Shown: piece by piece, positions 3,408 through 12,608 of the stretch
How the letters are laid out: every line of letters starts with the position of its first letter
Position numbering within the stretch: position 1 is the stretch's first letter
Assembly (NCBI GenBank): GCA_030041335.1
Contig: JASHOB010000259.1
Span: 1 to 36,324 of the forward strand
Reading direction: 5' to 3'
DNA: 36,324 bases
From: Alphaproteobacteria bacterium
GTDB taxonomy: Bacteria > Pseudomonadota > Alphaproteobacteria > ATCC43930 > CGMCC-115725
Notes under the pieces: generated by a model
Databases searched by the model: none
What the model saw: only the letters and a program-made list of their open reading frames with translations
Told to the model about the DNA's origin: nothing
Translations under genes and position numbers: made by a program

Positions 3408-3737
3408 CGGGCAGGTGCCGCCGAATTTGCCCGTGCCAGCCGGTTCGGCCGGCGCCGCTTGCGCCATCGCGGTACGCCATGTCGACTAAGGCATCATCGA
3501 TTCAGTCCTTGGACGGGGGACCCCGCGGGTGGCGACGTTGGTGGCAGGCGCGCCGGCAATGACGGGCCGTCTGATCGCACGCATCGCGATACACGCTCGC
3601 TGCTCGTGCGGCGCCGCGATAATCCCAGCTTGACGATAAGGACAAATCTCCAACACCGATGACAAGATCCGATGGTTTCGGGATCTTGATATCAATAGTG
3701 TCGTCAGCGGGAGGCGTTTCCAGCTCATTCTTGCGTG

Positions 3738-4658
3738 ATGTCGATGTGGCCGTTTCGTTACCCGATCCTTCCTGTCCTGCTCCTTGTCTCGGCGTTGTTC
3801 GTTCCGCCAGCGGCGAGTATCGCGGCGCCGCTCGATCGTGAGTTCCAAGAATGTACGCAATGTCCTGTGATGGTCGCCATCCCCGCGGGCAAATTCATGA
3901 TGGGGAGTCGGAAATCGGAACGTGGCCGCTTCGATTCCGAAGGTCCTCAGCATCTTGTCCGGGTTCGGGCCTTCGCGATCGGCAAATATGATGTGACGAC
4001 GGCGCAGTTCCGAATCTTTCTGCAGCAGACCGAATATCAACCGAGACCGTGCGATCCCATTCTCGGTCTCACTTGGCAGTCACCAGGACGCGGAATGGTG
4101 TACCCGCCTGGTCCGGTCGAAGAGCCCCGATGGCCCGCTACGTGCCTAAGCTGGAACGACGCGCTGGCTTATATTCGTTGGTTGAACGACAGAGTGCGTA
4201 ACCTGCCTTCAGCCCGCCAGTCGCGCGGCGGCCCGTACCGACTGCCAAGCGAAGCCGAGTGGGAATATGCCGCGCGTGCGGGCACCTCCACCTCGCGGTG
4301 GTGGGGTGACCGTGTCGGTGCCGGCAACGCCAACTGCAACGGCTGCGGCAGCAAGTGGGATGGTCAGCTCCTCGCTCCGGTGGGCAGCTTCGGACCCAAC
4401 CCGTTTGGGCTTTACGATATGCTGGGCAATGTCTGGCAGTGGACAAGCGATTGCTGGAACGACAGCTACGTTGGAGCACCAGCGGATGCCCGGCCGTGGC
4501 AAACCGGCGATTGCGCCGATCGCGTGATCCGCGGCGGGTCTTGGAGCAATGTTCCGATCTATATACGTTCCGCAACGCGAAGCAGGAACAAAGCTTCCGG
4601 AGGCGATGTCGACTATTCGAACTATGTCGGATTTCGCGTCGCTCGCTCACTGCCTTAA
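3738..4658 (+). CDS. Exported SUMF1-fold protein without the catalytic Cys pair
   Basis: A 306-residue protein of the formylglycine-generating-enzyme family (PF03781). It begins with a Sec-type signal peptide (WPFRYPILPVLLLVSALFV, cleavage near AASIAA). The domain follows: CTQCPVMVAIPAGKFMMGS, a DSEGPQHLVRV block, WNDALAYIRWLND, YRLPSEAEWEYAARAG, GLYDMLGNVWQWTSDCW, DRVIRGGSW and the terminal VGFRVARS. These are the core SUMF1 motifs. In true FGEs the stretch between the RGGSW motif and the AARS motif carries the two active-site cysteines; here it reads SNVPIYIRSATRSRN, with no Cys. It is therefore probably a substrate-binding or structural relative that acts outside the inner membrane. Start choice is uncertain: GTG 3735, ATG 3738 or ATG 3744, none with a well-placed ribosome binding site. 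It ends 28 bp from the convergent TonB-like gene. Confidence 0.85.
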   Translation: MSMWPFRYPILPVLLLVSALFVPPAASIAAPLDREFQECTQCPVMVAIPAGKFMMGSRKSERGRFDSEGPQHLVRVRAFAIGKYDVTTAQFRIFLQQTEYQPRPCDPILGLTWQSPGRGMVYPPGPVEEPRWPATCLSWNDALAYIRWLNDRVRNLPSARQSRGGPYRLPSEAEWEYAARAGTSTSRWWGDRVGAGNANCNGCGSKWDGQLLAPVGSFGPNPFGLYDMLGNVWQWTSDCWNDSYVGAPADARPWQTGDCADRVIRGGSWSNVPIYIRSATRSRNKASGGDVDYSNYVGFRVARSLP

Positions 4659-5994: not shown

Positions 5995-7575
5995 GTGGGC
6001 GACGCACGCATCGCGCTCGCGGCATCGCCGAGCCAAATACCAGCATTGAAGCGAGCTCTCGAGGAGATCGGTGCGTTGGCGACAGAAACGTCGCCCATTG
6101 TTCGCACGTACTACGATTCGCCCGATTTCCGATTGTTTCAGAAGGGCTTGTGCTTATCTGTTCAGCCTCAAGCGTCGAATTGGGTCCAGATGCTGAAGGC
6201 AATCGGCCCGGTCAGCGGCTGGGGGTTTGTGCCGGACCACTGGCGGGATGCTATCGCGGCTGACCAACCGGATCGCAACGCGCCCGAGACTGGTCCGTTG
6301 CTGGCTATGGTCGTCGACGATGACTTGCGGCCGCTTTTCAAAGTCCAGCTGACGCCAACCATTTTCAGGGTGCGCGCCGATCCCGGCGCTGAAATCACCG
6401 CCATGATCGGGGAGGGAGAAATCTTCCTAGCGGACGGCGAGGTCGCGGAACCGCTAGTGGAAGTCGAACTTGCCCTCGATCGTGGCGCGCCCGCCGCTCT
6501 TTATGACCTGGCTCTCAGACTGCTTGACGTGATCCCGCTTCGGTTACAGCCGGACGGAGAAGTTGAGCGTGGCTACCGGCTTGCTGGAGCGACACCTGAG
6601 CGCAATAGGGCAAAGCCATTTTCCCGCGAGCACCCCATGACCCTAGAAGCGCTCCTGCAAAAAGCAGCAGACGAGTGTCTCGGGGAATTGCTTAGCAACG
6701 AGCGCGCGGCGCTGGCGGGGGAGCCGGCGGCTTTTCATCAAATGCGCGTCGCGTTGCGACGGCTTCGCTCGGTGCTCTCGACCGTCAAGGCGATGCTCCC
6801 GGCTGAACACTACCGGTCCGTGCAAGCTGATTTGAAGTGGATGGCCGGCAGCCTGGCGCCCGCGCGTGACTGGGATGTAATGATGGCGGATCTGATCCCC
6901 CCGATTCAGTCCATCCTTCCGGAGGATGCCGATCTGAAGCGACTTGTCGCGACGGCCAAGCGGCAGCGCCGCGCAGCGTGCGAGATGGCCAGGTCTGTGA
7001 TCGAGTCACGCCGGTATATCGAGACGCTATTGAAGCTGGCCCGCTGGTTCGCGTCGCGCGGCTGGCGTGATCAGCCGGCATCTGAAAATTCCGCTCCCCT
7101 GTTCGCTCCTGTGGCGGTGGTGGCGCCGGCACTAATCGAGCGGCGTTGGCGCCAAGTCCGCAGGCGCAGCAAGGGCTTTGCCAAGTTGACGCAGGAGGAG
7201 CGCCACGAATTCCGGATCGCACTCAAGAAACTTCGCTACATGATCGAGGTCGGCGGCGAGGCATTTGATGCTCGTGACGTCAAGATCCTCATCAAGCGGG
7301 TAAAGCCGCTGCAAGAGGAACTTGGTCATATCAATGACATTCGCATCGCGCAGCGATTGATCAAGCATGTTGCGCATGCAGCCGGCGACGGTGCCGGCGA
7401 GCTCAGCCAAGACGCCGGGTTGGTTCTAGGTTGGCATATTCGCGGCATGGCCGAAGACGAGCCAAAGCTTCAACGCAACGTGCGACGCTTGCGAAAAGCG
7501 AGGCCCTTCTGGCGCGATATGGGGGAGTGGCCGACCGCCGGTGCCGTCGCCGAAGCTGAAAACCTGGTACCCTAG
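5995..7575 (+). CDS. CYTH-CHAD domain protein with degenerate CYTH half
   Basis: A 526-residue protein. Residues 1-200 resemble a CYTH triphosphatase domain (YYDSPDFRLFQKGLCLSV at 39-56, ADGEVAEPLVEVELAL at 146-161). Residues 215-526 form a CHAD domain (PF05235) with both conserved basic helices intact: HQMRVALRRLRS (248-259) and HEFRIALKKLRY (404-415). CHAD domains bind polyphosphate. The N-terminal ExExK metal-binding motif that defines active CYTH enzymes is absent (ARIALAA at that place), and the basic pair usually found after the GL-L motif reads LSVQ. The triphosphatase half is therefore likely inactive, leaving a polyphosphate-binding role. The GTG start is supported by TGAGG six bases upstream; extending upstream in frame does not restore an ExExK motif. 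Confidence 0.85.
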   Translation: MGDARIALAASPSQIPALKRALEEIGALATETSPIVRTYYDSPDFRLFQKGLCLSVQPQASNWVQMLKAIGPVSGWGFVPDHWRDAIAADQPDRNAPETGPLLAMVVDDDLRPLFKVQLTPTIFRVRADPGAEITAMIGEGEIFLADGEVAEPLVEVELALDRGAPAALYDLALRLLDVIPLRLQPDGEVERGYRLAGATPERNRAKPFSREHPMTLEALLQKAADECLGELLSNERAALAGEPAAFHQMRVALRRLRSVLSTVKAMLPAEHYRSVQADLKWMAGSLAPARDWDVMMADLIPPIQSILPEDADLKRLVATAKRQRRAACEMARSVIESRRYIETLLKLARWFASRGWRDQPASENSAPLFAPVAVVAPALIERRWRQVRRRSKGFAKLTQEERHEFRIALKKLRYMIEVGGEAFDARDVKILIKRVKPLQEELGHINDIRIAQRLIKHVAHAAGDGAGELSQDAGLVLGWHIRGMAEDEPKLQRNVRRLRKARPFWRDMGEWPTAGAVAEAENLVP

Positions 7576-8342
7576 CGGCCCGCGTGAGTGCGGCTTCCTA
7601 ACCTTGGTGTGTGGAAATTTTGCCAAACGATAGCGCCGTCGTCGGCTGCTGTTATCCGGTGCGCATTTTGGCGGGGCGAAGCGGCGCCTGAGGTGCCCTT
7701 TGACAAGCATCTTCCGCAAACGCGACCTCTCCACGGCGCCATCGTTGGGGCACGACGTTTCTTGCCATCGATACCCATACAATCACGAACTTGCCATTCC
7801 GAAGCAGGATGTTGCCGCCGCGGCATGTGAGACCATCGCCCAATATCCCGAGCATCACCGCTTTTGGTATATGGTACGACGAACGGCATGATGCCGCGTG
7901 CCCGTCGGTACACCCGTGCCTGCGGAAAACGGCTGGCACCTTGCGACTACGGCGTTATGATCGCGGCGCACGCGTCTTAAATGACAAAATGTCTGCGCGG
8001 GTGATCGCTGATCGGGAGGGAGCCTTCATCTCAAGCGCTCGCTACCGGCTCGCCGGCGCAGTTGATGCAACAAAGAGCGGCACGCCTTTGACGGCGCAGT
8101 TGCTTTCGCGGGGCAGAGCCAGAAGTAAAGACGAGCTCCCCAAAGGCGTCGGTAACGCTGGTGAGGGCCGCATGGGATATCCACGGGTTGAATTTGCGCA
8201 GCACGGACGAGTTCGCCTTGAGAAAACTGTGTCCTTCATCGTTTCCGGCGACGGAAGCAGGGTTGGCCGCGCGCCGCCCGCGCCGCCCTCAGCGGGCGAT
8301 AGCGTCTCGCCGCATCGCGCGTTCATCTGCACCATCGCCAGG
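7576..8342. other. Long intergenic stretch without recognisable gene
   Basis: About 770 bp. A plus-strand frame stays open from 7791 into the next gene, but residues before 8343 are low-complexity Arg/Pro/Ser text with no signal peptide or domain, so I treat it as non-coding. A 63-codon frame at 7700-7891 and minus-strand frames at 7426-7939 show no family resemblance. Either leader DNA or an eroded gene. Confidence 0.45.
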
Positions 8343-9521
8343 ATGCGCGTTGAGATCGGCAGAATTGTTCATCTGATCGCGAGGATTTGCCGGAGCTGGA
8401 ACGCACGGACTGCACCCCGACCGGGGCATCGTTTAGGATGGGCGCTCGTTCTTTACTTCGTGCTGCTCGGCCTGTTGCCGGCGGCGAGCGGGTCGGCGGC
8501 GGCACAGTCGGCTGCTCAGCCGCACCAGCGCCTTATCGTCGCTACCAAAGAGGCGCCGCCATTCGCGATGCGCGCGGAGAACGGCACTTGGACCGGCATC
8601 AGTATCGAATTGTGGAACCGGGTCGGGCGAAAACTTGGCGTTTATACTACCTTTCGCGAATACCAGACCGTCCCCGAAATGCTCGCCGCGGTCGCCAGCG
8701 GTGGCGCCGATGCCGCGGTAGCCGCGATTTCTGTGACGCCGGAGCGCGAGAAGACCGTCGATTTCACCCAACCGTTCTATGACTCAGGCCTCAGCATAGC
8801 GGTTCCCGCCAACAAGGAGATCGAATGGATCTTCATTCTGCGCAATGTCTTCACTTTCCGTTTTCTTGAAGCGATCGGTGTGCTCATCGCCGGCGCGATG
8901 ATTGTCGGCTCGGCGATCTGGCTCATCGAGCGACGCGTAACCGAGCACTATGCGAACGGTGCCCAGGGGTTTGGCACCGGGCTCTGGTGGTCGGCCTCCG
9001 CAATGGCTCAGGCCGCCGCCGCGGACAAGGCGCCGGCCACCTTGTGGGGCCGCTTGCTCGGCATGTTATGGATGATCACCTCGATCGTCGCCGTCGCCAG
9101 CTTTACCGCCGGGATCACGTCGCACTTGGCGGCAAGGCGCTTCGCCCAGGTAGTCAGAACCTCTTCCGACCTCGCTGCGATCCGCACCGGCAGTGTCCCT
9201 TCGACCAACGCCTTCGACTATTTGCGGAGCCAGCGTATCGACGCCCGATCCTATCCCAGCATCCCTGCCGGTCTCGACGCACTCAGGGCCGGCAAGCTCG
9301 ACGCTTTCGTCTATGACCGCCCGATCCTCGAGTGGAATGTGCATAAGGGGTACATCGACGACATCCAGGTGCTTGACAAGCTCTTTGTCCACGACAACTA
9401 CGCCATCGCGCTCCCCAAGGGCTCGGCATTGCGAATCAAGATCGACGTCGCCATGGGGGAGGAAATGCGCGACGTTTGGTGGCAGGATTTGTTGGTGCAA
9501 TATCTGGGGTCTGGCGAATGA
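8343..9521 (+). CDS. Prokaryotic ionotropic glutamate receptor-like protein (GluR0 type)
   Basis: A 392-residue protein with the split-lobe layout of bacterial glutamate-gated channels. It has an export signal or helix (about 32-52), binding lobe 1 (63-156, RLIVATKEAPPFAM), helix M1 (about 165-197), a pore loop (210-232), helix M2 (233-260, LWGRLLGMLWMITSIVAVASFTAGITS) and lobe 2 (268-392). Ligand residues of amino-acid-binding SBP_bac_3 domains are in place: R135 in SVTPEREKTVDF, the GSVPSTNAFDYL turn (283-294) and D325 in AFVYDRPIL. The pore loop reads GLWWSASAMAQAAAADKAP; homologues normally carry a TVGYGD-like K+ filter before KAP. It should sit in the inner membrane with the ligand domain in the periplasm. 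Start chosen at the last ATG before the signal. Confidence 0.8.
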   Translation: MRVEIGRIVHLIARICRSWNARTAPRPGHRLGWALVLYFVLLGLLPAASGSAAAQSAAQPHQRLIVATKEAPPFAMRAENGTWTGISIELWNRVGRKLGVYTTFREYQTVPEMLAAVASGGADAAVAAISVTPEREKTVDFTQPFYDSGLSIAVPANKEIEWIFILRNVFTFRFLEAIGVLIAGAMIVGSAIWLIERRVTEHYANGAQGFGTGLWWSASAMAQAAAADKAPATLWGRLLGMLWMITSIVAVASFTAGITSHLAARRFAQVVRTSSDLAAIRTGSVPSTNAFDYLRSQRIDARSYPSIPAGLDALRAGKLDAFVYDRPILEWNVHKGYIDDIQVLDKLFVHDNYAIALPKGSALRIKIDVAMGEEMRDVWWQDLLVQYLGSGE

Positions 9522-9620: not shown

Positions 9621-10851
9621 ATGGGGGCGCAAGACGGCATCGAGCACGTCGTTGTTCTCATGTTGGAGAATCGGTCGTTCGATTCGATGCTCGGCATGTT
9701 GTATCCCGCGAGCGTCGACTTCGATGGTTTGAGCGGGAAAGAGACTAATCTTTATCATTCGCCCGACGGCATCGTTCAAACAATTCCGGTCTGGCATAGC
9801 GCGGACATGGATGCGGCAACCGCGGCCATTCCCGATCCCGATCCGGCGAGCTGTTCACGGATATTAGCGAGCAGCTCTTCGGGCAGGGCGGCGTGCCCGG
9901 TATTCGGGTGCCGCCCATGAGCGGCTTCGTCGACAACTACATGGCGCAAAAATCGGCCGACCCGCCACCGCTTGCGGCGTCGATCATGCATTATTTCACG
10001 GCGGGGCAAGTGCCGGTTATAAGCGCTTTGGCGCGTGCCTTCGGTGTCAGCGACCAGTGGTATGCTTCGGCGCCGTGCCAGACCTGGCCCAATCGCTTTT
10101 TCGCGCATACCGGAACCGCCGGCGGTTACACCGATAATAATGTTGACGAGATTCCGTTTGGTCGTCCGACCCTCTTCAAGCGGTTGGGCGAGAAAGGGCG
10201 CAGCTGGCGCGTCTACTGCCACGACGTGCCACAGGCGCTGACGTTCCGTGATTTGTTGCTCGATGCCGCGACGCATCTCCGACATTTCAATGAGACGTTT
10301 GAGGACGACGCGCGCCGGGGCAATCTGTCGAACTACAGCTTCATTGAGCCCGGCTATTTCGCGAGCAGCGAATTGGGCCTGCTGCCGAACGACCAGCATC
10401 CGCCGCATAACATCGGCTACGGCGAGGAGCTGATCGCGCGGGCTACAACGCGGTTCGGGGCGCGCCGACATGGAAGAAGACCCTGCTCATCATAACTTAT
10501 GACGAGCATGGCGGTTGCTACGATCATGTGCCGCCGCCATTAGCCGTACCGCCTGATAATGCGCGCGGGCCCGACGGATTTGCTTTCGACCGCTACGGCC
10601 TGCGCGTACCGGCGGTTATCATATCGCCTTACATGTCGCCGGGAAAAATCGTCCGCGTGCCGGCAACGCCGATCCCACATCGGGGGTCCACCTTATCCAT
10701 TCGATCACACGTCTATCCTCGCGACCGTGCGCAAACTATTCACTCTCGGGGATCCGCTGACGGCAAGAGACGGCGTGCGCAGCAGGCGGCGCTCGTCCGT
10801 CAGCGGCCCGGTGAGTTCCAGGCGTCGAAGGGGAGCCCAAAAGCGCCATAG
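9621..10851 (+). pseudogene. Phosphoesterase family (phospholipase C/acid phosphatase), frameshifted
   Basis: A PF04185 phosphoesterase spread over three reading frames. Segment 1 from ATG 9621 gives the hallmark IEHVVVLMLENRSFDSMLG. Near 9843-9850 one base is missing, and the continuation GELFTDISEQLFGQGG...PMSGFVDNY is one frame back, running to about 10440 (AFGVSDQWYASAPCQTWPNRF, SNYSFIEPGYF). Near 10437-10445 a second one-base loss shifts to LIITYDEHGGCYDHVPPP and VPAVIISPYMSPG. Near 10675-10690 a third shift leads to GGPPYPFDHTSILATVRKLF; after 10770 the tail is unrecognisable. Catalytic motifs survive but no single frame encodes the enzyme. Real decay or homopolymer sequencing errors both fit; two breaks lie at G-runs. 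Confidence 0.8.
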
Positions 10852-11069
10852 CCTGGAGCCAGGCGGGTCGGCGCCATCCGGGCCGGCCACGAAGCGGCTA
10901 CTCCTGACGACGCCATCAAACCAGGATCTTGTGTGGAAAATGAGAAGAATTTAATCGGGTGCACGGGGAGCAAGTGCCGGGCGCACCGGGTTTTGCTTCT
11001 GAGGATCAAGCGAAAAGAATACGCAAACGCGGTCTTCGCAGCCGCGCAATGTGGTCCAGGGAGGGGAAG

Positions 11070-12608
11070 ATGGTAGCCAAGTCTGTTTTGGCCGGAATCT
11101 TTGCCGCTGTGCTCAGCTTGGGCATCGGCCCGGCCTGGTCGCAGAACGAGCCGCCGTTGCGGGTCGGCATGAACGCCGACCCGGACGTGCTCGACATGAC
11201 GGTTTCAACCAACCCACCTCAGGGACTGGCGACCCTCATCAACGTCTACGACACGCTCGACGAGACCGATGCCAAGGGCAACATGGTCCCGGGCCTGGCA
11301 GCGTCGTGGGACATTGAGGATGGCGGCAAGGTCATCACTTTCCATCTGCGCCACGGGGTCAAGTTCCAATCAGGCGACCCGTTTACCGCCGCCGACGTGC
11401 TATGGAGCGAGAACCGGCTGCTCAAAAAGACGTGGTGGTACGGGATCTTCGCGCGCTTTGTCGACAAGGTCGTCGCGGTCGATCCCTATACCGTCAAATT
11501 CGTCTTTAAGACGCCCGATTCCGAGTTCCTGCCGGTGCATGCGCTGATCATCGGCTCCAAGAAGTATTTCGATCGCGTCGGCGAGACCGAATTCGCGAAG
11601 CATCCGGTCGGCACCGGGCCATACCGGATCGTCGACTATAAACCCGCCCAGTATCTCGACCTCGCTGCCTGGGACGGCTATTGGGGTGAGAAGCCACAAA
11701 TCAGGCGCGCGCATTTCGTCTTCATCGGTGACGACAATACTCGCGTCGCCACGCTGCGAGCTGGCCAGGTCGATCTAATCATGGCGACGCCCTACTCCGC
11801 TTACGACGAGCTCAAGGCGGCCGGATACAGCGAAGTGAAGTTGCCCGTCCATCCGACCCAGTCGATCCAAATGCAATTCGCCAATACCCGCACGCCGTGG
11901 CACGACCTGCGCATCCGCCAGGCGATGGCCTATGCCATCGACAAGGATGCGATCGTCAACGGCTTATTGCACGGGGTGCCGACCGACTATCCACGCCTCA
12001 GCCCGGACGAGATCGGCTACGACGCGAATCTCAAGGACTATAAATACGATCCCGCCAAGGCCAAACAGCTCGAGGTCGCGGCCGGCTACCCTAACGGCTT
12101 CGCCATGCCACTCTATTATTCCACCGGCGTCTACTACGGTACCGAAGAGACTGCCACGGCGGTGGCGCTCTATCTGAAGCAAAACCTCAACGTTACCAGC
12201 AACGTTAAAGGTATCCAGCTCATCGAGCTGCTGCAGATGCTGGGCCGTATCGGCAACGACCCGAAAGCCGAATATGTCGGCGTCGCCGGGATTCCGGTGG
12301 CGAACCTGCTGACGCCGCTCGAGGGCGTCGAGCTCTACTATACCGGTCCTCGCGCCATCTATCACAACGACGAACTCAACAAGCTATTGGCGGAGGCCGA
12401 CGCGGTGTTCGAGCCCGCAAAGCAGGCGCCGCTGATCCAGAGGATGATGGCGATCGAGCAGAACGACCTGTCGACCATCACCCTTTGGCAGTATGTCGAC
12501 GTCTACGCGATGAAAAAGGGCATCAGCTACGTCCCCGGCAGACACGGACTTGAGGTCGTCTATCTGCCCCGGGTGCGCGCGAACACCACGATCGGCTCGG
12601 CCAAGTAG
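11070..12608 (+). CDS. ABC transporter solute-binding protein, family 5 (peptide/opine type)
   Basis: A 512-residue periplasmic binding protein of SBP_bac_5 (PF00496). It starts at ATG 11070 with a strong GGAGGGG ribosome binding site four to ten bases upstream and a Sec signal peptide (VAKSVLAGIFAAVLSLGIGPAWS). The mature part begins PPLRVGMNADPDVLDMTVSTNP and contains the family blocks VPGLAASWDIEDGGKVITFHLRHGVKF, HPVGTGPYRI and IRQAMAYAIDKDAIVNGLLHG. There is no Cys after the signal, so it is a soluble periplasmic protein, not a lipoprotein. No permease or ATPase genes adjoin it; the only ABC ATPase in the window is a distant remnant at 17077-17463. Substrate cannot be told from sequence; family members bind peptides, nickel chelates, glutathione, opines or sugars. 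Confidence 0.9.
   Translation: MVAKSVLAGIFAAVLSLGIGPAWSQNEPPLRVGMNADPDVLDMTVSTNPPQGLATLINVYDTLDETDAKGNMVPGLAASWDIEDGGKVITFHLRHGVKFQSGDPFTAADVLWSENRLLKKTWWYGIFARFVDKVVAVDPYTVKFVFKTPDSEFLPVHALIIGSKKYFDRVGETEFAKHPVGTGPYRIVDYKPAQYLDLAAWDGYWGEKPQIRRAHFVFIGDDNTRVATLRAGQVDLIMATPYSAYDELKAAGYSEVKLPVHPTQSIQMQFANTRTPWHDLRIRQAMAYAIDKDAIVNGLLHGVPTDYPRLSPDEIGYDANLKDYKYDPAKAKQLEVAAGYPNGFAMPLYYSTGVYYGTEETATAVALYLKQNLNVTSNVKGIQLIELLQMLGRIGNDPKAEYVGVAGIPVANLLTPLEGVELYYTGPRAIYHNDELNKLLAEADAVFEPAKQAPLIQRMMAIEQNDLSTITLWQYVDVYAMKKGISYVPGRHGLEVVYLPRVRANTTIGSAK

Follow-up and report, generated by a model that had tools for sequence, protein, structure and literature searches.

The window analyzed in this study is the whole 36,324-nucleotide stretch of contig JASHOB010000259.1 from an alphaproteobacterial genome assembly (GCA_030041335.1), and it contains on its forward strand a gene encoding a prokaryotic ionotropic glutamate receptor of 392 amino acids. 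By frame reading, the gene extends from an ATG at 8343 to a stop codon at 9519-9521. This ATG is likely the start of the receptor gene; the same frame stays open upstream of 8343, with a TTG at 7791, and inspection by eye found no further in-frame ATG, GTG or TTG from there to where the hydrophobic N-terminal segment is encoded, downstream of 8343. The features of the gene are as follows.

8343..9521, + strand: whole gene, prokaryotic ionotropic glutamate receptor, 392 aa (open reading frame without an in-frame stop)
8430..8516, + strand: N-terminal hydrophobic segment, residues 30-58, signal-peptide-like (model helix 30-50)
8526..8822, + strand: S1 half of the ligand-binding domain, residues 62-160, with T132 and R135 (Pfam SBP_bac_3, Lig_chan-Glu_bd)
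8856..8930, + strand: M1 transmembrane helix, residues 172-196 (model helix; Pfam Lig_chan 183-279)
8958..8999, + strand: pore helix M2, residues 206-219, with W215, W216 and S217 (model helix)
9006..9032, + strand: replaced selectivity filter, residues 222-230, AQAAAADKA (alignments, clade conservation)
9009-9011, + strand: Q223, the Q/R/N-site position (alignments)
9042..9146, + strand: M3 transmembrane helix, residues 234-268, with the FTA gate motif at 254-256 (model helix)
9150..9509, + strand: S2 half of the ligand-binding domain, residues 270-389, with G283 and D325 (Pfam)

In the window protein, Pfam SBP_bac_3 is matched as one domain over residues 64-389 (88.4 bits, cutoff 26.4) interrupted by Lig_chan at residues 183-279 (51.4 bits, cutoff 30.8), and Lig_chan-Glu_bd is matched in S1. 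Pfam, the structural model and the fold match give the order S1-M1-P-M3-S2, in which two amino-acid-binding halves surround M1, the pore loop and M3; beside the N-terminal segment, M1 and M3 are the membrane helices of the protein, and both the N-terminal domain and M4 are absent. A preliminary description of this DNA had claimed that the GluR0 layout is kept, and the splitting of SBP_bac_3 by Lig_chan bears this out; its gene coordinates, frame and landmark residues are confirmed as well (R135, GSVPST at 283-288, D325, WW at 215-216, AMAQAAAAD at 220-228 and KAP at 229-231). The two-lobed domain is confident in the AlphaFold2 model of the window protein (8-row alignment, mean pLDDT 78.0, pTM 0.56), and filter residues 223-225 are poorly modelled (pLDDT < 50). 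In a Foldseek search the top ranks went to LBD-TMD chains of AMPA receptors, the best with an E of 4.5e-22 and a TMq of 0.60 over 375 columns. VIA-align was used to re-align 1000 of the chains matched by Foldseek, and among these the best match of the binding core was GluR0 with L-glutamate (1ii5, Z 26.7, rmsd 2.5, 218 residues aligned), tied with the glutamate-binding core of Nostoc (2pyy, Z 26.7, rmsd 2.7, 212 residues). In searches at E up to 0.001 this was the sole full-length receptor of the family in its genome, the second match being an 87-residue stretch. The usual automatic annotation, a free ABC-transporter solute-binding protein, was rejected because M1-P-M3 is inserted in the domain and because none of the neighbor families recurs at more than 5 of the 17 clade places compared. 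Shadow open reading frames on the opposite strand are ordinary by-products of GC-rich coding DNA, and promoter and terminator scans near the receptor start gave no useful site.

The pore loop of the window protein reads W-W-S-A-S-A-M-A-Q-A-A-A-A-D-K-A-P, compared to W-W-x-x-V-T-M-T-T-V-G-Y-G-D-K-A-P in the K+-type consensus (16 rows, some with different flanking letters), and its length is unchanged. The filter is therefore MAQAAAAD where K+-type relatives have MTTVGYGD, and GYG is not present in the protein. One of the GYGD relatives is L006 from Alteromonas halophila. The two closest relatives, from Rhodopila metagenome-assembled genomes (63 and 61% identity), have the filters MTQAAAPD and MTQSAASD. 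Together with the window, these belong to a clade of 38 intact genes found in Rhodopila's family, a genus of the window's class (g275), a Rhizobium megaplasmid and the window's own family, for which the filter consensus is M-T-Q-A-G-A-A. Across the 38 clade rows, 48 of the 326 core columns are invariant, including T132, R135, D325, W216, S217, Q223, P231, G236, R237, F254 and A256. T132, R135 and D325 are the putative ligand site; in this architecture, an Arg in S1 and an Asp in S2 bind the alpha-carboxyl and alpha-amino groups (PMC2950845). The preliminary description had also listed the GSVPST turn among the binding residues; the turn is present, but G283 is its sole residue that is invariant in the clade (38/38). 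W215 and T255 are found in 35 and 32 of the 38 rows, respectively. Within the filter (222-230), Q223 is the only invariant residue, while T222 is found in 37 of the 38 rows (the window, with A222, is the exception), A224 in 33 and Gly at 225 in 30. With Q223 excepted, the filter columns are conserved no better than the remaining protein (mean entropy 1.06 for 222-230, compared to 0.99 for S1, 1.25 for S2 and 0.69 for M3). The constant element is thus the glutamine, and the alanine run is the window's own extreme form. The preliminary description had suggested testing whether the Ala-rich filter marks a conserved clade; the loop type is indeed shared by all 38 intact genes, but with the consensus TQAGAA. 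The same 38 genes rule out a sequencing artefact or a sporadic mutant, including the rare sporadic mutants for which the preliminary description had allowed.

The position of this glutamine corresponds to the Q/R/N site of animal receptors, a point absent from the preliminary description; unlike the alanines, it is kept by the clade. The spacing from the pore Trp to the Q/R/N-equivalent residue is 8 in GluA2, GluN1, the K+ rows and the clade. At +8 after the first pore-helix Trp, Thr is found in 16/16 GYG rows and Gln in 16/16 clade rows of a 79-row set (in which the column letter was the ungapped letter in 77 of the 79 rows), while GluA2 has Gln and GluN1 has Asn, which we take to be the Q/R/N-site residues. 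Q223 aligns to the GluA2 Gln and the GluN1 Asn by profile, and to GluA2 also by MAFFT. The alignment of GluN1 with the clade is gapless through the filter, and GluA2 has one residue fewer. Clade positions 223-227 are mostly without fixed charge. Three clade members (L123, L124 and L125, from G1130, G1196 and G1199) read MTQR, with Arg right after the conserved Gln, and have a less constrained pore.

The Gln type was identified in 24 of the 195 genomes of genus g275 (23 intact and one with a frameshifted copy only), in 10 of the 249 genomes sampled from Rhodopila's family, on a Rhizobium tumorigenes megaplasmid, and in 2 of the 43 genomes of the window's order, namely the window's and that of a member of its own family (G025). 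Outside these groups the type is rare. Samples of 385 genomes from the class and 398 from the phylum, in which the receptor family was called at E up to 1e-30, contained the family in 13 and 28 genomes and the Gln type in one (the window itself) and three (the window, G852 and G868), respectively. In one of these genomes (G868:C1:3072737-3073809; L078, L093), a Gln-clade gene is frameshifted into two overlapping 235-codon frames. Left out of trees and counts were L010 and both halves of the frameshifted G868 gene (L078, L087, L126, L128), and duplicates (L012, L013, L014, L040, L107, L127) were removed along with identical frames. Nine of the 16 plasmid records and one of the two Rhizobium tumorigenes records were examined, and among viral contigs 0 of 56 candidate stretches were confirmed.

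Gene neighborhoods were compared at 17 clade places, made up of the window, L031 and 15 further stretches (6-20 kb), using frames of at least 100 codons at E < 1e-12. The receptor itself recurred at all 17, overlapping shadow frames recurred at 16, 15 and 9 of them, and no other family did so at more than 5; a conserved operon was rejected on these counts. The next family occurred in 5 places, its one scanned member being an ABC ATPase (PF00005/TOBE_2), and 30 neighbor families occurred in 3 places and 51 in 2. A formylglycine-generating-enzyme-like gene of the window (3735-4658) is common to the Rhizobium locus only (2/17, 28% identity). The same-strand neighbors of the receptor include a CHAD-domain protein (5995-7575, +) and an SBP_bac_5 peptide-type binding protein (10959-12608, +), neither of which belongs to a family shared with any of the 16 remaining clade places. 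Immediately after the receptor, at 9621-10495 (+), two overlapping frames match PF04185 (profile 1-43 and 86-270) and look like a frameshifted phospholipase-C-like gene.

Phylogenies calculated with the pore columns removed place the Gln receptors together: the 16 clade rows fall on one side of a branch in a 79-row tree (SH-aLRT 98) and form one clade in a 39-row tree (100/99.9), and all 38 clade rows are together in a 56-row tree (SH-aLRT 100). The closest rows outside the clade are GYGD receptors. One clade in pore-free trees beside GYGD receptors indicates one local replacement, and there is good support for the Gln filter having arisen once. The clade also separates from 14 K+ rows both in a tree of the binding domain only (97) and in one of the TM region only (94), with four ungrouped rows left uncounted, and a pore domain-swap from another family was therefore rejected. 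A single group of all 16 K+ rows was rejected (p-AU 0.00024, 39-row set), while 13 K+ rows as one clade were not (p-AU 0.0958, 34 rows after five long-branch rows were dropped, with the outlier L070 ungrouped). It is likely that the Gln filter arose from within the K+ types, and we infer that the K+ type came first. The preliminary description had considered a K+ filter usual among relatives, which is true of the closest rows beyond the clade; however, of the 79 family rows in the comparison only 16 have GYG, a frequency biased by the use of profiles partly built from K+ and Gln rows to find them. Its reservation that the family might never have had a K+-type filter is countered by the tree-nearest rows, which are GYGD types, although nesting within the K+ types is no more than likely. 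Within the clade, the window groups with Rhodopila and its family-mate G025 with genus g275, which suggests transfer between lineages.

Selection on the pore was estimated from pairwise Nei-Gojobori sums; the pairs lack independence, and the set containing the window has a dS close to 1. Among 21 rows of genus g275, dN/dS was 0.118 for the whole gene, 0.042 for the pore helix and filter (209-237), 0.039 for M3, 0.131 for S1 and 0.166 for S2. In the pores of three closely related copies from the family of Rhodopila, 19 synonymous and no non-synonymous differences were counted (summed over three pairs), the two Rhodopila genes had a dN/dS of 0.069 in the pore compared to 0.146 overall, and the window with the two Rhodopila genes had 0.068 compared to 0.226, with a loose M3 (0.348). 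The exception was the set of three MTQR rows of g275, where the pore (0.183) was no tighter than the whole gene (0.158). In four of the five sets, therefore, purifying selection acts more strongly on the pore than on the S1 and S2 lobes (pore dN/dS 0.00-0.07). These values, the intact flanks and the conservation of the clade uphold the claim that the change is a local replacement and not decay. A pore tighter than the ligand site is not expected of a non-conducting sensor, and as far as sequence comparison can tell, this constraint argues for a working channel.

Taken from the sequence, the receptor is probably an amino-acid-gated cation channel that is not K+-selective. A periplasmic two-lobed amino-acid-binding domain, split by an inverted two-helix pore, would presumably assemble as a tetramer; ligand binding would close the lobes and pull M3, and the pore would open. 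In the clade ancestor, a single event would have converted the K+ filter T-T-V-G-Y-G-D into T-Q-A-G-A-A-Q/D, so that Gln came to occupy the Q/R/N position and the K+-selecting ladder of carbonyls was lost. The product is predicted to be a ligand-gated channel without K+ preference, through which Na+ and perhaps Ca2+ may permeate. There is overlap between the Q/R/N site and the selectivity filters of KcsA and GluR0 (PMC3483616), breakdown of TVGYG admits Na+ and Ca2+ (PMC8667807), and the Q/R/N residue governs Ca2+ permeation in animal receptors (PMC3483616, PMC12226733). A 2026 paper reports a role for GluR0 in rapid ionic stress; GluR0 has been assayed there in E. coli deficient in K+ uptake (PMC13099474). 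As counterpoints, the window copy deviates from the clade (T222A, and Ala in place of Gly at +2), and a non-selective channel would be costly in an energized membrane, with no gene neighbor common to the clade places that would account for its use. The weakly modelled filter, the unremarkable conservation of the filter columns other than Q223, the MTQR set, the loose M3 of the window's set, the frameshifted G868 copy and the Ion_trans_2 score of L011, which passes the cutoff, likewise speak against the channel reading. More tentatively, it is possible that this bacterial clade independently made a K+-selective receptor AMPA-like, that is, Gln-filtered, Na+/Ca2+-permeable and amino-acid-gated, by one filter replacement, and so retraced in bacteria the transition presumed to separate GluR0 from the receptors of animals.

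There are several potential alternatives to a working cation channel. Of the two readings offered by the preliminary description, a pore of different selectivity is the better one, and a non-conducting periplasmic amino-acid sensor, with its pore closed or collapsed and signaling by contacts, is unlikely. The sensor would be consistent with the poorly predicted filter in the model, the shorter loop of some relatives (L044, L049) and the MTQR set, and we know of no filter chemistry that corresponds to QAAAAD; nevertheless, constraint in the g275 genes is strongest on the pore and M3, the pore is held more tightly than S1 and S2 in all but the MTQR set, the FTA gate residues are retained, and the 392-aa chain has no additional signaling domain detectable by Pfam and no shared partner gene was found at the clade places. 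It is slightly less probable that the pore passes protons or non-cations (anions, water or small amino acids) through a wide, neutral Ala/Gly filter. The neutral loop would suit such a pore, as would the Arg beside Gln in the three MTQR rows and the Lys or Arg at the Q/R/N-equivalent of four Vibrionaceae-type relatives, but fixed charge at 223-227 is absent from most clade rows, and among animal receptors Gln at this site marks cation channels (PMC12226733). That the pore is relaxed or decaying in the window's lineage alone while the remaining clade conducts has only a slight probability. T222A is confined to the window, M3 is loose in the set of the window and Rhodopila, and the gene was not found in the three genus-mates searched (61-80% complete); against this, the frame is open without lesions, the codon-position GC of the gene resembles that of neighboring genes, the pore dN/dS of that set is low, and R135, T132, D325, Q223, F254, T255 and A256 are all retained.

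The proposal of an independent origin also has to be weighed against shared ancestry, in which the Gln clade would be the bacterial sister of the eukaryotic receptor pore. The Pfam K+-pore model Ion_trans_2 scores 15.5 bits on the window protein (cutoff 22.5) and 14.0 and 13.4 bits on the two Rhodopila proteins, all below the cutoff, compared to 44.0-53.5 bits on three GYGD relatives; one clade member without GYG (L011) exceeds the cutoff at 26.3 bits. A TM profile of the K+-type rows matched KcsA/Kv channels first (up to 52.9 bits), while the clade TM profile ranked plant GLR3.4 (49.4 bits), GluN1 and GluA2 above K+ channels, the best of which among the matches listed reached 32.9 bits. This ranking favors shared ancestry, as does the fact that a grouping of GluA2 with the clade was not rejected (p-AU 0.397, with one long eukaryotic row only). 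However, GLR3.4 scored equally with the K+-type TM profile (49.6 bits), so that the change is a lost likeness to K+ channels, in keeping with a pore that is not K+-selective, and not a gained likeness to eukaryotic receptors, and the full-length K+-type profile scored higher than that of the clade on the same GluA2 chain (4u5f; 106.1 compared to 91.2 bits), although the profiles differ in diversity and their bits are not strictly comparable. In the free tree, GluA2 falls outside both the clade and the K+ types (83/93, not firm, with an end branch of 4.92 and some rows in no group and uncounted, as in the binding-domain-only and TM-only trees). Shared ancestry is regarded as improbable, with an independent replacement as the tentative proposal.

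Prokaryotic non-K+ filters have been published before (Ger et al. 2010); the new part is a Gln clade of single origin. Among 22 prokaryotic sequences with ionotropic glutamate receptor topology, that study found 12 with a K+ filter and 10, termed Group 2, with P regions matching no recognized selectivity that were closer to human receptors by BLAST count (PMC2950845). The window protein fits the Group 2 definition, having this topology and a P region that is not of the K+ type (PMC2950845). Group 2 itself is heterogeneous, its ten members being given by accession only, and was compared here by its definition. The loops of Paracoccus alcaliphilus (TSGR), Photobacterium (TKGP), Vibrio (TRGP) and Chamaesiphon (TQAEE) differ from that of the Gln clade and belong to separate lineages. 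Group 2 reportedly includes cyanobacteria, Paracoccus and Vibrionaceae. No description of the Gln clade was found among the top matches of the open-access full-text literature.

Compared to GluR0, the K+-selective Group 1 receptor of Synechocystis, the window protein shares the S1-M1-P-M3-S2 order, the lack of an N-terminal domain and M4, the carboxylate-binding Arg, the amine-binding Asp and a binding core that superposes on 1ii5, but it lacks TVGYG and carries Gln where the Q/R/N site would be. AMPA/kainate (Q/R site) and NMDA (N site) receptors share with the clade a Gln or Asn at +8 from the pore Trp, the Gly at +2 of the clade consensus and the FTA/YTA gate in M3, while the window protein differs from them in lacking an N-terminal domain and M4, in its Ala at +2 and in the rest of the filter. 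AvGluR1 of the rotifer Adineta vaga, seen as a bacterial-animal intermediate (PMC12332018, PMC12226733), is the mirror case, with a K+ filter in an animal receptor. A channel of Tsukamurella paurometabola with a proline-rich filter is likewise a bacterial cation channel whose K+ filter was replaced, but it is reported to be calcium-activated (PMC5052707) and is not a glutamate receptor. How non-selective animal receptors originated from K+-selective bacterial ones is an old question with few intermediates. Bacterial proteins of the same architecture but with unlike filters, the change being placed on a single branch, allow the effect of that change to be tested by filter exchange, and the clade would supply small single-gene Gln-filter receptors for structural work. 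If the channel reading is true, some bacteria possess ligand-gated depolarizing channels.

Beyond the clade, the aligned rows suggest that several bacterial lineages have lost the K+ filter. For the 47 rows that belong to neither the K+ nor the Gln group, the Q/R/N-equivalent residue is Ser in 13, Thr in 8, Asn in 6, Gly in 6, Lys in 2, Arg in 2, Gln in 2 (L023 and L025) and others in 8, with a register that is less certain where the loop is shorter; the Lys and Arg rows have the Photobacterium/Vibrio-type loops ITKGPF and ITRGPF. If true, the presence there of Asn, Ser, Lys or Arg in other lineages would make Q/R/N-site variation a bacterial theme as well. Three receptors from family f24 of the class (L016, L018 and L074) read VVNGGFEER[MV]P, with Asn at the Q/R/N-equivalent and Gly at +2, and are reminiscent of GluN1. 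As a profile, however, this Asn-type lineage (with L075) matches K+ channels first, so the NMDA-like appearance by eye is a weak likeness. One class genome carries four tandem receptors of the family (L019, L027, L029 and L030, at G175:C64:3951-9760) with odd filters, for example AVLNEAGD and VTSENVVDG.
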